Shown here piece after piece: positions 30,848 through 38,232 of a stretch of DNA of 64,000 nucleotides. This DNA is from Streptomyces verrucosisporus (GTDB taxonomy: Bacteria > Actinomycetota > Actinomycetes > Streptomycetales > Streptomycetaceae), in contig NZ_JADEYH010000001.1 in NCBI RefSeq assembly GCF_017114865.1, positions 372,001-436,000 on the forward strand, given 5' to 3'. The notes under the pieces are model-generated. The model was not told the DNA's origin and did no database searches. It worked only from the letters and a program-made list of their open reading frames with translations. Each line of letters starts with the position of its first letter. Position 1 is the first letter of the stretch. A program made the position numbers and the translations under genes.

Positions 30848-32320
30848 TCAGGGGGCGTGCAGCCGCAGCACGGCGCGCTCGGACCAGTCGGCCGGAACGC
30901 CGCGCAGCGAAACCGCGATCATCGTGAGGAACGCCAGCGGAACGGTCCAGGCGGCGGGCTGCGCCAGCAGCACGGTCAGCCAGGCCGACGACGGCTGCGT
31001 GAGGGCGGACAGCACCGCGGCCCCCGTCGCCGTGACCACCCCGGTGGCCAGCCCGGCCGCCGCGCCCGCGACCGTCAGCCGCGTCCACCAGATGCCCAGC
31101 ACCAGCAGCGGGCAGAACGTGGAGGCCGCCACCGCGAACGCCCAGCCGACCACCACGTTGATGTCCAGGTGCGCGGCGGGCAGCGACAGCAGCACCGCCA
31201 CCAGCGCACCCGCCGCCACCGCCAGGCGCAGCCTGGTCACCCCGCCGCCGAACAGGTCGTGGGAGAGCCCGCCGGCCAGGGCCAGCAGCAGCCCGGAGGA
31301 AGTGGACAGGAAAGCGGCGAACGCGCCGGTGGCCACCAGCGCCGTCAGCACACTCCCCAGCGTCCCCGGGACGGCCACCCCCGGCAGGACGACGGAGACG
31401 GTGTCGGTGGCGTTGCTGTGCACCAGGTGCGGGGTCAGCACCCGCCCCAGCAGCCCGTAGACGGCCGGGAACAGGTAGAACAGGCCCAGCAGACCGATCA
31501 CCAGCACGGCCACCCGGCGGGCGGCCCGGGCGGTGGGGCTGGTGTGGAAGCGCATGATCACATGGGGCAGCCCGATGGCCCCCAGCGTGGTGGCCAGCAG
31601 CACCGACCAGGTGGACAGCAGCGGCATCCCCGCACCCTGGATGTCGATCAGCGGGCGGGTCCACTCCTCGGCGGCCGGACCCGTCTCCCGGACCGGCCGC
31701 AGCGCCTCGGCGCGCGTGTCCGCGCCGACGTGCACGATCAGGTAGATCGCCGGCACGGCGATGAAGGCCAGCTTGACCAGGTAGTGGAACGCCTGGACGT
31801 AGGTGGCCGACCGCATGCCGCCCACCGCGATCGAAGCGCTCACCACCAGCCCGGCCAGCACCACGCCCACCCAGTACGGTGTACCGCTGACCAGGCTCAG
31901 GACCACACCGGCGCCCTTGAACTGCGGCACCAGATAGAGCCACATGATCACCAGCACGATCACCCCGCACAGCTTGCGGATCGCCGGCGAGCCCAGCCGG
32001 TACTCGGCGAAGTCGGGCACCGTGAACGCCCCCGAGCGCCGCATCGGCCCGGCCACCAGCGCCACCACCGCGACGTACCCGGCGGTGAAGCCGACCGCGT
32101 ACCACATCGCCCCGACGCCGTCCTTGAGCATCAGCCCGGCCAGACCGAGCACCGAGGCGGCCGACACGTACTCCCCGGCGATCGCCATGGCGTTCCAGCC
32201 GGGGGCGATACGGCGGGAGGCGACCAGGAAGTCCGGGCTGGTGCGGGCCGCGTGGACGCCGTACAGGCCGATGGCCAGGCTGGCGGCCAGGACCAGGCCG
32301 ATCGCGGTCACGGCGGTCAC
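30848..32320 (-). CDS. Sodium:solute symporter (SSS family), first carboxylate transporter
   Basis: 490 aa with about 13 transmembrane helices and the SSS pattern (SPDFLVASRRIAPGWNAMAIAGEYVSAASVLGLAGL; later WSVLLATTLGAIGLPHVIMRFHT; GAFAAFLSTSSGLLLALAGGLSHD). The opening helices and the GLPHVIMRF segment match the ActP/MctC acetate-pyruvate branch. The GTG at 32320 overlaps the stop of the small membrane gene (GTGA), which shows that the operon order is kinase - regulator - small protein - symporter. Substrate inferred as a short carboxylate such as acetate, pyruvate or lactate from family and from the adjacent LytS/LytTR pair. Confidence 0.9.
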   Translation of the reverse strand: MTAVTAIGLVLAASLAIGLYGVHAARTSPDFLVASRRIAPGWNAMAIAGEYVSAASVLGLAGLMLKDGVGAMWYAVGFTAGYVAVVALVAGPMRRSGAFTVPDFAEYRLGSPAIRKLCGVIVLVIMWLYLVPQFKGAGVVLSLVSGTPYWVGVVLAGLVVSASIAVGGMRSATYVQAFHYLVKLAFIAVPAIYLIVHVGADTRAEALRPVRETGPAAEEWTRPLIDIQGAGMPLLSTWSVLLATTLGAIGLPHVIMRFHTSPTARAARRVAVLVIGLLGLFYLFPAVYGLLGRVLTPHLVHSNATDTVSVVLPGVAVPGTLGSVLTALVATGAFAAFLSTSSGLLLALAGGLSHDLFGGGVTRLRLAVAAGALVAVLLSLPAAHLDINVVVGWAFAVAASTFCPLLVLGIWWTRLTVAGAAAGLATGVVTATGAAVLSALTQPSSAWLTVLLAQPAAWTVPLAFLTMIAVSLRGVPADWSERAVLRLHAP

Positions 32321-32748
32321 GGACCGGCCCCCGCACCCGTACCGGCCCCCGCACCCGTACCCGTGTCCGTGCTCGCGGAGCTCTCCGCGCGCTCGGCACG
32401 GCGCACATGGCACAGGGCGAGCAGCAGCAGCACCGGGTAGGTGGCCACCACCAGCACCAGCCACGACACCGGCACGCCCGCCACGTGGAGCCGGTCCAGC
32501 ACCGGCAGCGCCGCGATCGTCCCGCTGGAGCCGAGCAGCACCGCTCCCAGCAGGGTCACCGTCCGCAGCGCGGTGCGGCGCTGCGCGGCGAACACGGCGC
32601 GGGCGGCCTCGGCGTCGGCCGGCGCGGGCAGCGGCAGCAGCTGCGGATGGCGGCGGTGCCCGCGGGCCAGGGCGATACGGGTCTGCGGGCTGGTGACCTT
32701 CACCCGGCGCGGACCGCCGAGCTGGCCGCCCTTGACCGGGCTCTTCAC
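32317..32748 (-). CDS. Small two-helix membrane partner of the symporter
   Basis: 143 aa starting at GTG 32748. A basic N-terminal part (QTRIALARGHRRHPQ) precedes two helices (TVTLLGAVLLGSSGTIAALPVLD and VSWLVLVVATYPVLLLLALC), ending in a Thr/Gly/Ala repeat tail made by an 18-bp tandem duplication. Small two-helix proteins (DUF485, DUF4212) are commonly encoded directly before SSS acetate-type symporters and are thought to support them. It is coupled on both sides by GTGA overlaps. I do not place it in a named family. Confidence 0.78.
   Translation of the reverse strand: MKSPVKGGQLGGPRRVKVTSPQTRIALARGHRRHPQLLPLPAPADAEAARAVFAAQRRTALRTVTLLGAVLLGSSGTIAALPVLDRLHVAGVPVSWLVLVVATYPVLLLLALCHVRRAERAESSASTDTGTGAGAGTGAGAGP
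32323..32358. repeat. 18-bp tandem duplication in the tail of the small membrane protein
   Basis: The 18-mer ACCGGCCCCCGCACCCGT is repeated exactly (32323-32340, 32341-32358). It stays in frame and encodes a duplicated Thr-Gly-Ala-Gly-Ala-Gly unit at the C-terminus. Confidence 0.85.
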
Positions 32749-33533
32749 CGGGCCGCCCTGCCCAGCCGGCCGCTGCGCGCCGCCTCCAGCAACTGCTCCT
32801 TCAGGCTCCGGGCGTGGCGGCGGCTGACCGGCACGTCACCGGCCGGAGTGCACGCCACCAGCCCCGAGGAGCTGGTGACCCGCAGGTCGTGGACCCAGCC
32901 GACGGCCACCAGATAGCCGCGGTGCACCCGCACGAAGCCCGCCGGAGCCCATATCTCCTCCAGATACGACAGCGACAGCCGGATCAGATGAGTGCCCTGC
33001 CCGGTGTGCAGCCGTATGTAGTCGCCGTGCGCCTCCACGAACTGGACGTCGTCGCGGCGCACGAACACCGTCCGGCGGCCGTGGTCGATCTGGACGACCG
33101 CCAGCTCGTCGCGCGGTCCCCCCACCTCGTCCGCGCCGCCGCCCGCCGCGGCCCGCCCGGTGGCGCCGATCCGGGCCACCGACTCGGCCAGCCGCTCGGG
33201 CCGGACGGGCTTGAGCAGGTAGTCCACCGCCCCGATGCCGAACGCCTCGATGGCGTGGGACTCCGAGGCGGTGACGAAGACGATGGAGGGCGGTGCCGAG
33301 AGCTGGCTGATGACCCGGGCCACGTCCATGCCGTCCAGCCCCGGCATGGAGATGTCCAGGAAGACGGCGTCGAAGGCGGTCGCACCCAGCAGCTGCACCG
33401 CCCGGGCGCCGCTCTCGGCGGCGTACACCTCGCCGACCTCCGGTGTGTCCGCCAGGAGGTCGGCGAGCTCCTCGCGGGTGGATGTCTCGTCCTCGACGAC
33501 GAGGACCCGAAGGGCCCGCGGCACGCTGCTCAT
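32745..33533 (-). CDS. LytTR-type response regulator
   Basis: 262 aa. A receiver domain (residues ~8-125) with acidic pocket E14-D15, phospho-acceptor D60 (VFLDISMPGLDG) and K108 (YLLKPVRP) is joined to a LytTR DNA-binding domain (~155-255: VVQIDHGRRTVFVRRDDVQFVEAHGDYIRLHT.., FVRVHRGYLVAVGWV). Start ATG 33533 overlaps the kinase stop (ATGA). LytTR domains bind direct repeats with the consensus [TA][AC][CA]GTTN[AG][TG]; three such repeats lie upstream of the DUF485-symporter operon at 37046-37097. Analogous LytS/LytTR systems (BtsSR, YpdAB, LytST) control pyruvate or acetate transport. Confidence 0.93.
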   Translation of the reverse strand: MSSVPRALRVLVVEDETSTREELADLLADTPEVGEVYAAESGARAVQLLGATAFDAVFLDISMPGLDGMDVARVISQLSAPPSIVFVTASESHAIEAFGIGAVDYLLKPVRPERLAESVARIGATGRAAAGGGADEVGGPRDELAVVQIDHGRRTVFVRRDDVQFVEAHGDYIRLHTGQGTHLIRLSLSYLEEIWAPAGFVRVHRGYLVAVGWVHDLRVTSSSGLVACTPAGDVPVSRRHARSLKEQLLEAARSGRLGRAAR

Positions 33534-34636
33534 TCGGTAACCACTCCTCGCATGAATCGCGGCACCCTGATGGTCACCTTGGTGCCGTTGCCGGGCGCGG
33601 TCTCGATGACGAGGCCGTACTCCGGTCCGTACACGGTACGGAGCCGCCGGTCCACGTTGGCCAGACCGACGTTCCTGGCGGGAGGGCCGACTCCGGCGAG
33701 GATCGCCCGTGCGAGTTCCGGCTCCATGCCCACTCCGTCGTCCTCGATCTCGATGACGCACAGCGGGCCCTCGCCGAACCCCGAGACGCCGATGTGCCCG
33801 GGTCCGGCCTTCTTCTCCAGACCGTGGCGCACGGCATTTTCCACTATGGGCTGGACGACGAGGAAGGGTATGGCGACGGGAAGAATCTCCGGGGCCATCC
33901 GGACGGTGATCTCCATCCGGTCGTCGAACCGGGCGCGCTGCAGCTCCAGGTACGTCTGGGTGGCCTGGAGCTCGTCGGCGACCGTCACGTAGTCGCCGGC
34001 CGTGGAGAAGCTGTAGCGCAGGTAGTCGGCGAAGTCGGTGAGCAGGCGGCGGGCGCGGCCGGGATCGGTGCGGATGTGCGCGGCGATGACGGCCAGGGAG
34101 TTGTGGACGAAGTGCGGGGATATCTGGGCCCGCAGGGTGCGCAGGTCCGCCGCCGCGATCCGGGCGCGGGCGCTGCGCAGCTCGGTGTGGTCCAGCGCCT
34201 GCGACACCAGCTCGGCCACCTCGGCCACCTCGGCCTCGTCCAGCGCCCGCCCGTCCGCGGAACCGCCGACCACCAGGCAGCCGGTCAGCTCGTCCGCCAC
34301 CAGCAGCGGGGCCGCGCACAGCGGGGGCTTGCGGAAGACGGTGCCGTGCTCGTACACCTGGGCGAGCACCGCGTCCAGGTCGGTGCCCTGAGGCAGCGCA
34401 CCGTGCCGGGCGACGGGCCCGTCGAGGTCGGCGAGTACGACGGCCTCGGCGCCCACCAGCCGCCGGATCCGGCGGACCGCGGCCAGGGCCCGGCTGCCGT
34501 GCAGACCGTCCTGGAGGTCCGCGCCGATCAGCCGCACCTCCCGCAGGACGCCGATGGCCCCGGGCAGGCCGGACCCGGCCGGGCCACTCCGGCCCGGCCG
34601 TCCGCGGCGGGCGCCTCTCCACGATCCTCTGACCAC
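33530..34636 (-). CDS. LytS-type sensor histidine kinase (soluble)
   Basis: About 368 aa from GTG 34636. The N-terminal ~175 residues look like a GAF-type sensory domain (RALAAVRRIRRLVGAEAVVLADLDG.., KPPLCAAPLLVADELTGCLVVGG). The kinase core has the H-box LRTLRAQISPHFVHNSL, characteristic of the LytS/His_kinase family, then N-box VQPIVENAVRHGLE and G-boxes IEDDGVGME and GLANVDRRL, ending GNGTKVTIRVPR. No transmembrane segment is present, unlike LytS itself. The start is uncertain: there is no ribosome site, but TACGGT (34643-34648) ends 6 nt before GTG, fitting a leaderless mRNA. Confidence 0.85.
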   Translation of the reverse strand: MVRGSWRGARRGRPGRSGPAGSGLPGAIGVLREVRLIGADLQDGLHGSRALAAVRRIRRLVGAEAVVLADLDGPVARHGALPQGTDLDAVLAQVYEHGTVFRKPPLCAAPLLVADELTGCLVVGGSADGRALDEAEVAEVAELVSQALDHTELRSARARIAAADLRTLRAQISPHFVHNSLAVIAAHIRTDPGRARRLLTDFADYLRYSFSTAGDYVTVADELQATQTYLELQRARFDDRMEITVRMAPEILPVAIPFLVVQPIVENAVRHGLEKKAGPGHIGVSGFGEGPLCVIEIEDDGVGMEPELARAILAGVGPPARNVGLANVDRRLRTVYGPEYGLVIETAPGNGTKVTIRVPRFMRGVVTE

Positions 34637-34665
34637 AGTGCGACCGTATAACGTGACAAATGGTG

Positions 34666-34704
34666 ATGGGGAGTCCTTCGAACCCGCTTCGAAGGACTCC
34701 CCAT
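34666..34704. terminator. 17-bp stem hairpin between symporter and kinase genes
   Basis: Perfect inverted repeat 34666-34682 with 34688-34704 and a CCCGC loop; each arm ends in TTCGAA. It lies 120 bp after the leftward symporter stop and just upstream of the kinase promoter, so it probably insulates the two operons. A role as a protein-binding palindrome is not excluded. Confidence 0.7.
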
Positions 34705-34823
34705 GGGGCCCGGTGGCGGGACCGGCGCCAGGATGTGGGGGGTCACGCCGGTGTAGAGGCACCCGCCACCGGGTGCCCGAAGGGCCCGCCGGGGGGGATG
34801 GGCGGGCCCGGTCCGGGGTGCGG

Positions 34824-36524
34824 TCAGTGCTTGGCCGCGCCCTCGGCGCCGGCCCCGGTCAGGGCCCGCACCTGGAGCTCGGCGAAACGCCGCGGGTTGC
34901 TCTCGCCCGAGGACAGCGTGCCGACGATCGCGCACAGCAGACCGAGCGGGATGGACACCAGGCCCGGGTTGGTCAGCGGGAACCAGGCGATGTCGATGCC
35001 CGGGAGCAGCGCCTTCTCGGTGCCGGAGAACACCGGCGAGAAGACCACCAGACCGACCGCGCTGATCAGACCGCCGTAGATGCCGGCGACCGCGCCCCGG
35101 GTGTTGAACCTCTTCCAGAACAGGCTCAGCAGCAGGGTCGGCAGGTTGGCCGAGGCGGCGATGGCGAAGGCCAGACCGACCAGGAAGGCCACGTTGAGGC
35201 TCTGGGCGAAGATCGCCAGGACGATCGACGCGGCGCCGATGCCGAAGGCCGACAGACGGGCGACCTTGATCTCCTCGTGCTCGGACGCCCGGCCCTTGCG
35301 CACCACGCTGTTGTAGAAGTCGTGCGCCAGGGACGAGGAGGAGGCGATGACCAGACCGGCCACCGTGGACAGGATCGCCGCGAAGGCGACGGCCGCGATG
35401 ACCGCCAGCATCACCGAGCCGAAGAACTCGCCGCCGAAGTGCTCACCGACCTCCCGGGCCAGCTGCGGCGCGGCGGTGTTGCCCGCCGCGTCCTGGGCGG
35501 TGATGGCCTCCTTGCCCACCAGGGCCGCGGCGCCGAAGCCCAGGATCAGGGTCATCAGGTAGAACGAGCCGATCAGGCCGATGCCCCAGTTGACGGACTT
35601 GCGGGCGGCCTTGGAGTCCGGGACGGTGTAGAAGCGGATCAGGATGTGCGGCAGACCCGCGGTGCCCAGCACCAGGGCCAGACCGAGGCTGATCAGGTCG
35701 AGCTTGTTCCACATCGTCTGCAGGGCGTCACCGGGCACCTCGACGCCGAACCGCAGCCCCGGTTCCAGGAAGGACTGCCCGGCGCCGCTGGCGTTCGAGG
35801 CGTCGCTCATCAGCTCGCCGAAGTCGAAGCCGTAGATGGCCATCACCAGGGCGGCCAGGACGATGGTGCCGCCCATCAGCATGCCGGCCTTGATGATCTG
35901 CACCCAGGTGGTGCCCTTCATGCCGCCGAAGGTCACGTACAGGGTCATCAGGATGCCGACGACGACGATGCCCACGATCTTGGCGGTGTCGGCGTCCATG
36001 CCCAGGTACGTCTCGCCCGGCTGGATGCCCAGCAGAAGGGCGACCACCGCACCGGCGCCGACCATCTGGGCCAGCAGGTAGAAGATCGACACGGTGATGG
36101 TGGACACGGCCGCGGCGGTGCGCACCGGGCGCTGCTGCATCCGGTACGACAGCACGTCCGCCATGGTGAACCGGCCGGAGTTCCTCAGCAGCTCGGCGAC
36201 CAGCAGCAGGGCCACCAGCCAGGCGACGAGGAAGCCGATGGAGTAGAGGAAACCGTCGTAGCCGAACAGCGCGATCATGCCCGCGATGCCCAGGAAGGAG
36301 GCGGCGGACATGTAGTCGCTGCCGATGGCGAAGCCGTTCTGCATACCGGAGAACTCGCGCCCGCCGGAGTGGAAGTCGGCCGCGGACTTCGTCTGGCGGC
36401 CCGCCCACACCGTGACGCCGAGCGTCACGGCGATCATGACGATGAACACCAGGATGGTCAGGGTGCGGCTGCTGGAGCTGACCTCCTCGGCCGCCAGGAG
36501 CGCGTGGGAAGCGGTGGTCGTCAT
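34824..36524 (-). CDS. actP: Cation/acetate-type symporter (SSS family, ActP-like)
   Basis: 566 aa, about 13-14 helices. ActP hallmarks: SAADFHSGGREFSGMQNGFAIGSDYMSAASFLGIAGMIALFGYDGFLYSIGFL is cut here into motifs DFHSGGREFSG, IGSDYMSAASFLGIAG and GYDGFLYSIGF; also LSYRMQQRPVRT, GTAGLPHILIRFYTVPD and STVAGLVIASSSSLAHDFY. E. coli ActP (549 aa) takes up acetate, glycolate and related acids with Na+ or H+. Its ATG overlaps the DUF485 gene stop (ATGA), the canonical yjcH-actP arrangement. Probably regulated by the neighbouring LytTR protein. Confidence 0.94.
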   Translation of the reverse strand: MTTTASHALLAAEEVSSSSRTLTILVFIVMIAVTLGVTVWAGRQTKSAADFHSGGREFSGMQNGFAIGSDYMSAASFLGIAGMIALFGYDGFLYSIGFLVAWLVALLLVAELLRNSGRFTMADVLSYRMQQRPVRTAAAVSTITVSIFYLLAQMVGAGAVVALLLGIQPGETYLGMDADTAKIVGIVVVGILMTLYVTFGGMKGTTWVQIIKAGMLMGGTIVLAALVMAIYGFDFGELMSDASNASGAGQSFLEPGLRFGVEVPGDALQTMWNKLDLISLGLALVLGTAGLPHILIRFYTVPDSKAARKSVNWGIGLIGSFYLMTLILGFGAAALVGKEAITAQDAAGNTAAPQLAREVGEHFGGEFFGSVMLAVIAAVAFAAILSTVAGLVIASSSSLAHDFYNSVVRKGRASEHEEIKVARLSAFGIGAASIVLAIFAQSLNVAFLVGLAFAIAASANLPTLLLSLFWKRFNTRGAVAGIYGGLISAVGLVVFSPVFSGTEKALLPGIDIAWFPLTNPGLVSIPLGLLCAIVGTLSSGESNPRRFAELQVRALTGAGAEGAAKH

Positions 36525-36910
36525 GCCCGTCCTCCCGTCCGGCCGGCGGACGCGCCCGCGGCCGCACCGGTCAGCTCGGTCCGCAGGTCGTCCGCGAGCG
36601 GGTCGACCTTCCGGTCGGCGTAGCGCGCGTACATGATCGCGATGCCGAAGGTGCTGGCGAACTGGAGGACGCCGAACACCAGGGCCACGTTGACGTCGCC
36701 GAACAGGACCGTGGACATCACGTCACGGGCGTAGGCGGACATCAGCACGTACAGCAGGTACCAGGCGAGGAAGCCGACGCTCACCGGGAGCACGAACCTC
36801 ATCAGGCTCCGCCTGAGCTGGTCGAAACGCGGATCGCTGTGCATGGCCACCATGCGGTCCTCCGCGTCCCCGGCGGGGTCCAGGGTTTGTTGTAGACGGT
36901 CTGCGGACAC
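36521..36910 (-). CDS. DUF485 membrane protein, partner of the ActP-like symporter
   Basis: 129 aa from GTG 36910. That start is chosen because AAGGAGG lies 5 nt upstream (minus strand), while the longer candidates at 36925 and 36946 lack ribosome sites. DUF485 core: HSDPRFDQLRRSLMRFVLPVSVGFLAWYLLYV and VNVALVFGVLQFASTFGIAIMYARYADRKVDPLAD, split around two helices. DUF485 proteins precede ActP-type symporters in many bacteria. First gene of the operon and target of the putative LytTR sites 136-187 bp upstream. Confidence 0.9.
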   Translation of the reverse strand: MSADRLQQTLDPAGDAEDRMVAMHSDPRFDQLRRSLMRFVLPVSVGFLAWYLLYVLMSAYARDVMSTVLFGDVNVALVFGVLQFASTFGIAIMYARYADRKVDPLADDLRTELTGAAAGASAGRTGGRA

Positions 36911-36976
36911 TGCCGCCTCCTTCATCGACACGACGCGATACGACACGACGTACGGGAGCGGAAAAGGAATGCGGGG

Positions 36977-37005
36977 AACGTAAGGTGCGTCACACTCGCG
37001 GTGAA
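36977..37005 (-). promoter_or_regulatory. Candidate promoter of the DUF485-symporter operon
   Basis: On the minus strand TTCACC (37000-37005) and TACGTT (36977-36982) are separated by exactly 17 bp, a fair match to a housekeeping -35/-10 pair. The start codon at 36910 would be about 60 nt downstream. This is by eye only. Confidence 0.4.
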
Positions 37006-37045
37006 GAAGCTGATCGCGGTGTGCGGCGAACGCCGGATACGCGCG

Positions 37046-37097
37046 CCGAACGGTAGACTGTCGTGCGCCGAACGGTCGCCTTTCCGCGCCGAGCGGT
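37046..37097 (-). promoter_or_regulatory. Three direct repeats matching the LytTR-binding consensus
   Basis: On the minus strand the 9-mer ACCGTTCGG occurs at 37046-37054 and 37068-37076, and ACCGCTCGG at 37089-37097. The gaps are 13 and 12 bp. The published LytTR consensus is [TA][AC][CA]GTTN[AG][TG] repeated with 12-13 bp spacing; the first two copies match 9/9 and the third 8/9. A degenerate copy (GGCGTTCGC, 37026-37034) lies next. They face the DUF485-symporter operon. The 338-bp divergent region 36911-37248 that holds them contains no gene. Confidence 0.65.
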
Positions 37098-37248
37098 CAC
37101 CCCTGCGGGGGAAGCGGCGGCGGAGCGCACACCCGGACGCGGGCCGCCTCCGTACGCGCCGTGCTTCACACCGTCCGCAGGCGCGTTACGCACCCGTTGC
37201 CGGGCGAAGCGGCGCCCGGGGGCGAGGCACGGTAGCGTTCGTGGCGTC

Positions 37249-38232
37249 ATGGAAACCCTTGCCTTCATCCCCAGCCCGTCGTCGGGCGAGATCGTCATCG
37301 GACCGATCCCGCTGCGGGGCTACGCGTTCTGCATCATCCTCGGTGTCTTCGTCGCGGTCTGGCTCGGCGGGAGGCGCTGGGTCGCCCGCGGCGGACAGCC
37401 CGGCACGGTCGCCGACATCGCCGTGTGGGCGGTGCCGTTCGGCCTGGTCGGCGGCCGTCTCTACCACGTCGTCACCGACTACCAGCTCTACTTCGGCGAG
37501 GGCCGCAACTGGGTCGACGCCTTCAAGATCTGGGAGGGCGGCCTCGGCATCTGGGGAGCGATCGCGCTGGGCGCGGTGGGCGCCTGGATCGCCTGTCGCA
37601 GGAGGGGCATCCCGCTGCCCGCCTACGCGGACGCCATCGCGCCCGGCATCGCGCTCGCCCAGGCCATCGGCCGCTGGGGCAACTGGTTCAACCAGGAGCT
37701 GTACGGGCGCCCCACGGACCTGCCGTGGGCCGTGGAGATCGACAACGGCGTCGACACCGGCACCTTCCACCCCACCTTCCTGTACGAGTCGCTGTGGTGC
37801 GTGGGTGTGGCCCTGCTGGTGATCTGGGCCGACCACCGCTTCCGCCTCGGCCACGGCCGCGCCTTCGCGCTGTACGTCGCGGCCTACACGGCGGGGCGTT
37901 TCTGGATCGAGTACCTGCGCATCGACGAGGCCCACGAGATCTGGGGCCTGCGTCTGAACAACTGGACCTCGATCGTCGTCTTCCTGGCGGCGGTGGCCTA
38001 CATCGTCCTCTCGGCCAGGCTCCGCCCCGGGCGTGAGGACGTGGTGGAGCCGGCGGCGGAGGGGGCCGGCGACGCCGGTCCCTCCGATGATCCCGACGGC
38101 ACCGACGGCACCGACGGCGGCGCGACGGCGGAGGGCTCCGCCGAGGGCACGGGGAAGGCCGCGGGGGACCGGGCCGGCGGACCGGAGCGCGCCGAACCCG
38201 CCGGAGGGACGTCCGCCTCCACCACGGGCTGA
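37249..38232 (+). CDS. lgt: Prolipoprotein diacylglyceryl transferase
   Basis: 327 aa. Transfers diacylglycerol from phosphatidylglycerol to the lipobox Cys of prolipoproteins at the cytoplasmic membrane. Seven transmembrane segments are visible, with the Lgt signature GRWGNWFNQELYG and conserved HPTFLYESLW and GRFWIEYLRID. A disordered Asp/Gly/Ala/Glu tail (residues ~260-327) is added, as often in actinobacteria. TAGCGT (37233-37238) lies 10 nt before the ATG; no ribosome site. Its clients in this window include the lipoprotein at 48753 and LivK. Confidence 0.95.
   Translation: METLAFIPSPSSGEIVIGPIPLRGYAFCIILGVFVAVWLGGRRWVARGGQPGTVADIAVWAVPFGLVGGRLYHVVTDYQLYFGEGRNWVDAFKIWEGGLGIWGAIALGAVGAWIACRRRGIPLPAYADAIAPGIALAQAIGRWGNWFNQELYGRPTDLPWAVEIDNGVDTGTFHPTFLYESLWCVGVALLVIWADHRFRLGHGRAFALYVAAYTAGRFWIEYLRIDEAHEIWGLRLNNWTSIVVFLAAVAYIVLSARLRPGREDVVEPAAEGAGDAGPSDDPDGTDGTDGGATAEGSAEGTGKAAGDRAGGPERAEPAGGTSASTTG

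Follow-up and report, generated by a model that had tools for sequence, protein, structure and literature searches.

The window, a 64-kb stretch of Streptomyces verrucosisporus DNA, carries direct repeats upstream of an operon for a DUF485 subunit and an ActP-type symporter, and the question is which regulator these repeats serve and what it controls. The original prediction assigned them to the LytTR regulator encoded nearby, as three or four tandem sites of a self-contained sensor-transporter regulon similar in logic to BtsSR or YpdAB. Our analysis strongly supported the operator for the nearby regulator and the carboxylate transporter as its target, but neither the self-containment nor the BtsSR/YpdAB-like sensing. 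With high probability, the four sites at 37022-37098 serve as operator for the 262-aa regulator, which would control both DUF485-ActP and acs. The features are listed in Table 1.

Table 1. Predicted operator sites, promoter element and genes of the locus (window positions).
Feature	Position	Strand	Evidence
LytTR operator site 1 (distal), predicted	37085..37098	-	GACCGCTCGGCGCG; PWM score 17.0; conserved in orthologs
LytTR operator site 2, predicted	37064..37077	-	GACCGTTCGGCGCA; PWM score 20.0; 21 bp from site 1
LytTR operator site 3, predicted	37042..37055	-	TACCGTTCGGCGCG; PWM score 17.6; 22 bp from site 2
LytTR operator site 4 (proximal, degenerate), predicted	37022..37035	-	CGGCGTTCGCCGCA; PWM score 10.3; 20 bp from site 3
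-10-like element TTACGTT of DUF485-ActP promoter (inferred)	36977..36983	-	fixed distance to site 4 in orthologs
DUF485 subunit	36521..36910	-	PF04341 1.1e-28; start GTG 36910 after AAGGAGG
ActP/MctC-type monocarboxylate:cation symporter (predicted target)	34824..36524	-	PF00474; NCBIfam MctC equivalog
Soluble histidine kinase, GAF + His_kinase + HATPase	33530..34762	-	Pfam; GAF by fold
LytTR response regulator, 262 aa	32745..33533	-	PF00072 + PF04397 above cut-off
SMALL, two-TM protein, no family match	32317..32748	-	two hydrophobic segments; linked in other families
SSS2, second SSS symporter-like protein	30848..32464	-	PF00474; linkage; in kinase-regulator operon

The array consisted of ACCGYTCGG repeats on the minus strand upstream of DUF485-ActP, and all four copies were found where the original prediction had placed them. 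The 9-mer ACCGCTCGG occurred at 37089-37097, ACCGTTCGG at 37068-37076 and 37046-37054, and the degenerate GGCGTTCGC at 37026-37034. Successive 9-mers were separated by 12, 13 and 11 bp, giving start-to-start spacings of 21, 22 and 20 bp. Compared with the published LytTR consensus [TA][AC][CA]GTTN[AG][TG], two copies 13 bp apart matched at 9/9 positions, as claimed, and a third copy at 12 bp matched at 8/9. Across the 6.06 Mb genome, the consensus pair had its single match in the array, and the reversed control gave 0. The conserved unit exceeded the 9-mer (GCGCCGAACGGT on the plus strand, equal to ACCGYTCGGCGC), and the complete site had 14 nt, [G/T]ACCGYTCGGCGC[A/G], in three good copies and a weaker fourth.

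Site 4 was located 52 bp from the -10-like element in 13/13 scored Streptomyces loci, and the last site was 53-54 bp from it in 29/30 Nocardiopsis-group loci. This recurrence at a fixed 52-54 bp from TTAC..T in the orthologs indicates that the degenerate fourth copy is real. No -35 consensus was found in the DUF485-ActP promoters. CRP-like TGTGA/TCACA elements were visible around the -10-like TTAC..T at 36977-36995 and in the Streptomyces and Nocardiopsis promoters L018-L045; from these elements, a second regulator at DUF485-ActP promoters is possible.

We compared 78 related loci from Streptomyces, Nocardiopsis and relatives, Glycomyces, Amycolatopsis, Catellatospora and Intrasporangiaceae. 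The genes for the histidine kinase (HK), response regulator (RR), SMALL, SSS2 and DUF485-ActP were linked across these loci, in an order that varied between families. The repeats, whose retention in close relatives with the same locus was the check set by the original prediction, were retained: DUF485 upstream regions carried at least two sites (2-6) in 72/72 related loci, and 139/141 site pairs in 1.02 Mb of related loci were upstream of DUF485 and on its strand; as these loci had served to train the motif, both counts describe position and are not an independent test. Streptomyces and Nocardiopsis followed a spacing grammar of 20/21-22-20, to which most Nocardiopsis loci add another site 11 bp upstream, and the Amycolatopsis and Glycomyces arrays showed 11-bp spacing. 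The DUF485 promoters of three Nocardiopsis loci (L034, L037, L039) had six sites spaced 11, 20, 11, 11 and 20 bp; a distance of one helical turn between neighbouring LytTR sites, as seen there, is unusual. The idea that these sites also mediate autoregulation of the kinase operon was rejected, as no site pair preceded HK, RR or SSS2 in ~70 loci.

For an independent test, 395 genomes of the class were screened for the regulator and for DUF485, and the DUF485 upstream regions were taken by DUF485 score. The regulator was found in 207/395 of the Actinomycetes genomes sampled. The test sets comprised 40 genomes with the regulator (G340 was left out by hand), 28 without it, and 12 Streptomyces with only a more distant regulator. 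A qualifying pair upstream of DUF485-ActP was present in 36/40 regulator-positive and 0/28 regulator-negative genomes (Fisher 4e-15, a value that overstates independence because the genomes are related). The pair was absent from DUF485-ActP in the 12 ordinary Streptomyces (0/12), and the opposite-strand control over the tested promoters gave 0/80. Within the genus g4, the pair occurred in 10/10 genomes with the regulator and 0/7 without; despite the kinship-inflated Fisher value, this split argues against ancestry alone. When the PWM was restricted to the window and six near relatives, the AUC was 0.97, and 38/40 regulator-positive promoters scored above every regulator-less promoter. Among the four regulator-positive promoters lacking a qualifying pair, L141 had two strong sites 32 bp apart, L158 had one strong site, and two had no site at all. 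Together with the conservation, the contrast of 36/40 and 0/28 strongly supports, at the level of sequence, the reading of the three to four tandem sites before a carboxylate transporter operon as the LytTR operator of the regulator encoded nearby.

The same motif was recovered outside the Actinobacteria. In a scan of the region upstream of E. coli btsT, the top three matches of the actinobacterial PWM were the three published BtsR sites, spaced 20 and 21 bp; the published BtsR (YehT) binding fragment holds these three copies (PMC4847170). A BtsR-type operator sequence is thus common to Actinobacteria and E. coli. The regulator showed 32% identity to BtsR over its full length and shared PVSRR..(R/K)SLKE at the end of the DNA-binding domain. 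BtsR was also its best NCBIfam match, although below the equivalog cut-off (NF008677, 138.9 vs 246 bits).

From the array onward, the minus strand encodes, in order, DUF485, ActP, histidine kinase, LytTR regulator, SMALL and SSS2; lgt is divergent at 37249. The longest DUF485 ORF starts at 36946, and the start codon is probably GTG 36910; the true start of SSS2 is at about 32330. By the MctBC criteria ActP belongs to this type, with 849 bits for the MctC equivalog (cut-off 670) and a DUF485 neighbour (PF04341). The regulator is the sole LytTR protein encoded in the genome. actP is followed, ahead of the kinase gene, by a perfect 15-bp hairpin without a T run (34668-34702, minus strand; GGGGAGTCCTTCGAA-GCGGG-TTCGAAGGACTCCCC), probably a terminator. 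It makes it probable that the two blocks form separate units, although read-through into the kinase gene may occur. As the hairpin falls within the longest kinase ORF, the kinase probably starts downstream of it. SMALL was rejected as a DUF485 relative, since the profile comparison was weak (13.6% probability). The second DUF485 gene of the genome showed no operator sites.

Because the operator was found beside acs genes in other families, the promoter of acs (acetyl-CoA synthetase), which lies elsewhere in the window genome, was examined. It showed 11-bp-phased sites ~125-140 bp upstream of the gene, and the seven nearest relatives share them. In the Nocardiopsis group, 9/9 acs promoters carried three sites at 21 and 11 bp. 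Streptomyces with the window-type regulator had at least one acs site in 6/6, a pair in three and a single site in several relatives. A pair was found in 0/12 acs promoters of regulator-less Streptomyces (12 genes, 11 genomes) and in none of 12 Streptomyces genomes with the distant regulator. As acs carries the same sites in trans, the regulon is not self-contained, contrary to what was first proposed. Where a genome lacks DUF485, satP-acs or acs adjoins the module and its operator; other genomes show DUF485-actP-acs, or acs with another SSS gene, in that place. Our assignment of satP and acs is based on their sequence. Across these cases the DNA motif of the regulator is constant, and its target carrier varies between MctBC, SatP, OFA and other SSS proteins.

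The system is best read as a BtsR-like LytTR two-component system for uptake and activation of a monocarboxylate, probably acetate, functionally parallel to CrbS/R. The GAF-domain histidine kinase is predicted to phosphorylate the LytTR regulator. The phosphorylated regulator dimers would bind directly to the four sites, about two helical turns apart on one DNA face just upstream of the -35 region, and would activate the DUF485-ActP (MctC-type) uptake operon. The regulator would also act in trans on acs through the 11-bp-phased sites. With both DUF485-ActP and acs as targets, the regulon would couple import of acetate, and probably of other short monocarboxylates, to its activation, with acetyl-CoA as the product. 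Acetate as the signal is suggested by the genes, and pyruvate, lactate and propionate fit the transporters equally well.

The chance that the repeats are merely an accident of a GC-rich promoter is negligible. A single 9-mer is expected about once per 64 kb, and the two found in the window against 0.94 expected were not significant; however, the spaced pair, with at most three mismatches, was found once against 0.02 expected and is unique genome-wide, and its conservation across families refutes a chance origin. Another possibility is a binding protein other than the LytTR regulator. The mctC and acs genes of actinobacteria are under the control of other regulators, and the CRP-like TGTGA/TCACA elements occur near the -10 in many DUF485-ActP promoters, so the array could belong to a RamA/RamB-, GlxR/CRP- or BldC-like regulator of carboxylate genes, with the LytTR gene a mere neighbour. 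We consider this very improbable, because the sites track the LytTR gene and not the transporter gene (as in the genus split above), equal the BtsR operator and accompany the regulator to unrelated transporters.

Four sites could block the promoter through looping or spreading, so that the regulator would repress DUF485-ActP. Repression is unlikely, because all sites are upstream of the -35 region and at a fixed distance to the -10-like element, an activator-like geometry, and comparable repeats are used for activation by BtsR and YpdB (PMC10653868, PMC4847170). Activation by the LytTR regulator is the preferred reading, which for this locus follows from the site geometry only.

The sensing side differed from the original prediction. 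The kinase is a soluble protein of 410 aa with His_kinase and HATPase_c domains (Pfam). A structural search with the full kinase probed the kinase core only, and the N-terminal domain was therefore modelled alone (pLDDT 94.5). It matched GAF domains throughout the list, with a best match of Z 11.2 over 109 residues (rmsd 2.9), and Pfam GAF was below the cut-off. The kinase thereby shows the GAF, His_kinase and HATPase combination expected of BtsSR-type kinases. The 5TMR-LYT domain was absent from the window kinase and its relatives in a scan that detected it in BtsS. One N-terminal TM segment was found in the kinases of distant relatives and none in nearer ones. Because the kinase has a GAF domain and lacks the 5TMR-LYT membrane domain, its sensing is not BtsSR/YpdAB-like.

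Like the window system, BtsS/BtsR (E. coli, LytS/LytTR type, pyruvate, btsT) combines a LytTR regulator with a monocarboxylate transporter target, and its operator likewise has three ACCRCTYA-like direct repeats at 20-21 bp; unlike BtsS, the window kinase lacks 5TMR-LYT, and the predicted window targets are an SSS/DUF485 symporter and acs instead of a CstA-type carrier. YpdA/YpdB (PyrS/PyrR, E. coli, yhjX) is also a LytTR regulon with a monocarboxylate carrier, but the YpdB motif, GGCATTTCAT, differs from the window motif (PMC4847170). CrbS/CrbR (MxtR/ErdR; Vibrio, Pseudomonas) resembles the window system in its two-component control of acs and actP and in the involvement of an SLC5-type protein (PMC5715377, PMC9100948). 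However, CrbR is LuxR-type and CrbS is a fused SLC5-STAC hybrid kinase, whereas the window has a LytTR regulator and a separate SLC5-like gene.

This likeness allows a tentative extension of the preferred reading, compatible with it: SSS2 and the two-TM SMALL might together be the membrane sensor that signals to the soluble GAF kinase, with DUF485-ActP as the induced transporter. Such a sensor would be the split equivalent of the SLC5-STAC kinases CrbS and RpuS. SSS2 remains linked to the kinase and regulator genes in loci where another carrier replaces the target transporter, the operator is absent before the kinase-regulator-SSS2 genes, the kinase has no membrane sensor of its own, and acs/actP are also CrbR targets (PMC5715377). 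On the other side, the GAF domain could itself bind a cytoplasmic metabolite, and SSS2 could be a mere constitutive transporter; we regard the sensor role as possible but doubtful. If it is true, a split SLC5-STAC counterpart wired to a LytTR regulator and a BtsR-type operator governs acetate uptake and activation across Actinobacteria.

With these results, a LytTR two-component system of about half of the sampled Actinomycetes genomes gains a predicted operator and candidate targets. In the literature searched, no description was found of a LytTR system with DUF485, MctC, acs or SCO1217/SCO1220. The co-occurrence of the sites, the acetate-use genes and the regulator across many actinobacteria points to an undescribed acetate-use switch, a candidate for how these bacteria turn to acetate.

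Most Streptomyces carried the more distant version of the system, with the gene order RR-SMALL-SSS2-HK (L095, L097-L099). Its operator preceded an OFA-family carrier in 25/30 loci, far from the regulator gene, and had a conserved two-site form (L085-L094, L104, L206-L230). This MFS carrier is a YhjX homologue and close to the lactate-carrier model; no OFA carrier was detected in the window genome at 1e-60. In S. coelicolor, SCO1217 (kinase) and SCO1220 (LytTR) are listed as orphans (PMC9739842). From the locus number and the RR-SMALL-SSS2-HK order in other Streptomyces, they probably represent this related system, which differs from that of the window in that its operator, as seen in other Streptomyces, is before the OFA carrier and not before DUF485-ActP or acs. 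The same gene order suggests that the two 'orphan' signalling genes are a cognate pair, and their function becomes testable.

A further arrangement was visible in L240 (7656-7752) and L241 (6726-6822), where operators in both orientations occupied one intergenic region before an SSS-acs operon, which suggests divergent control.
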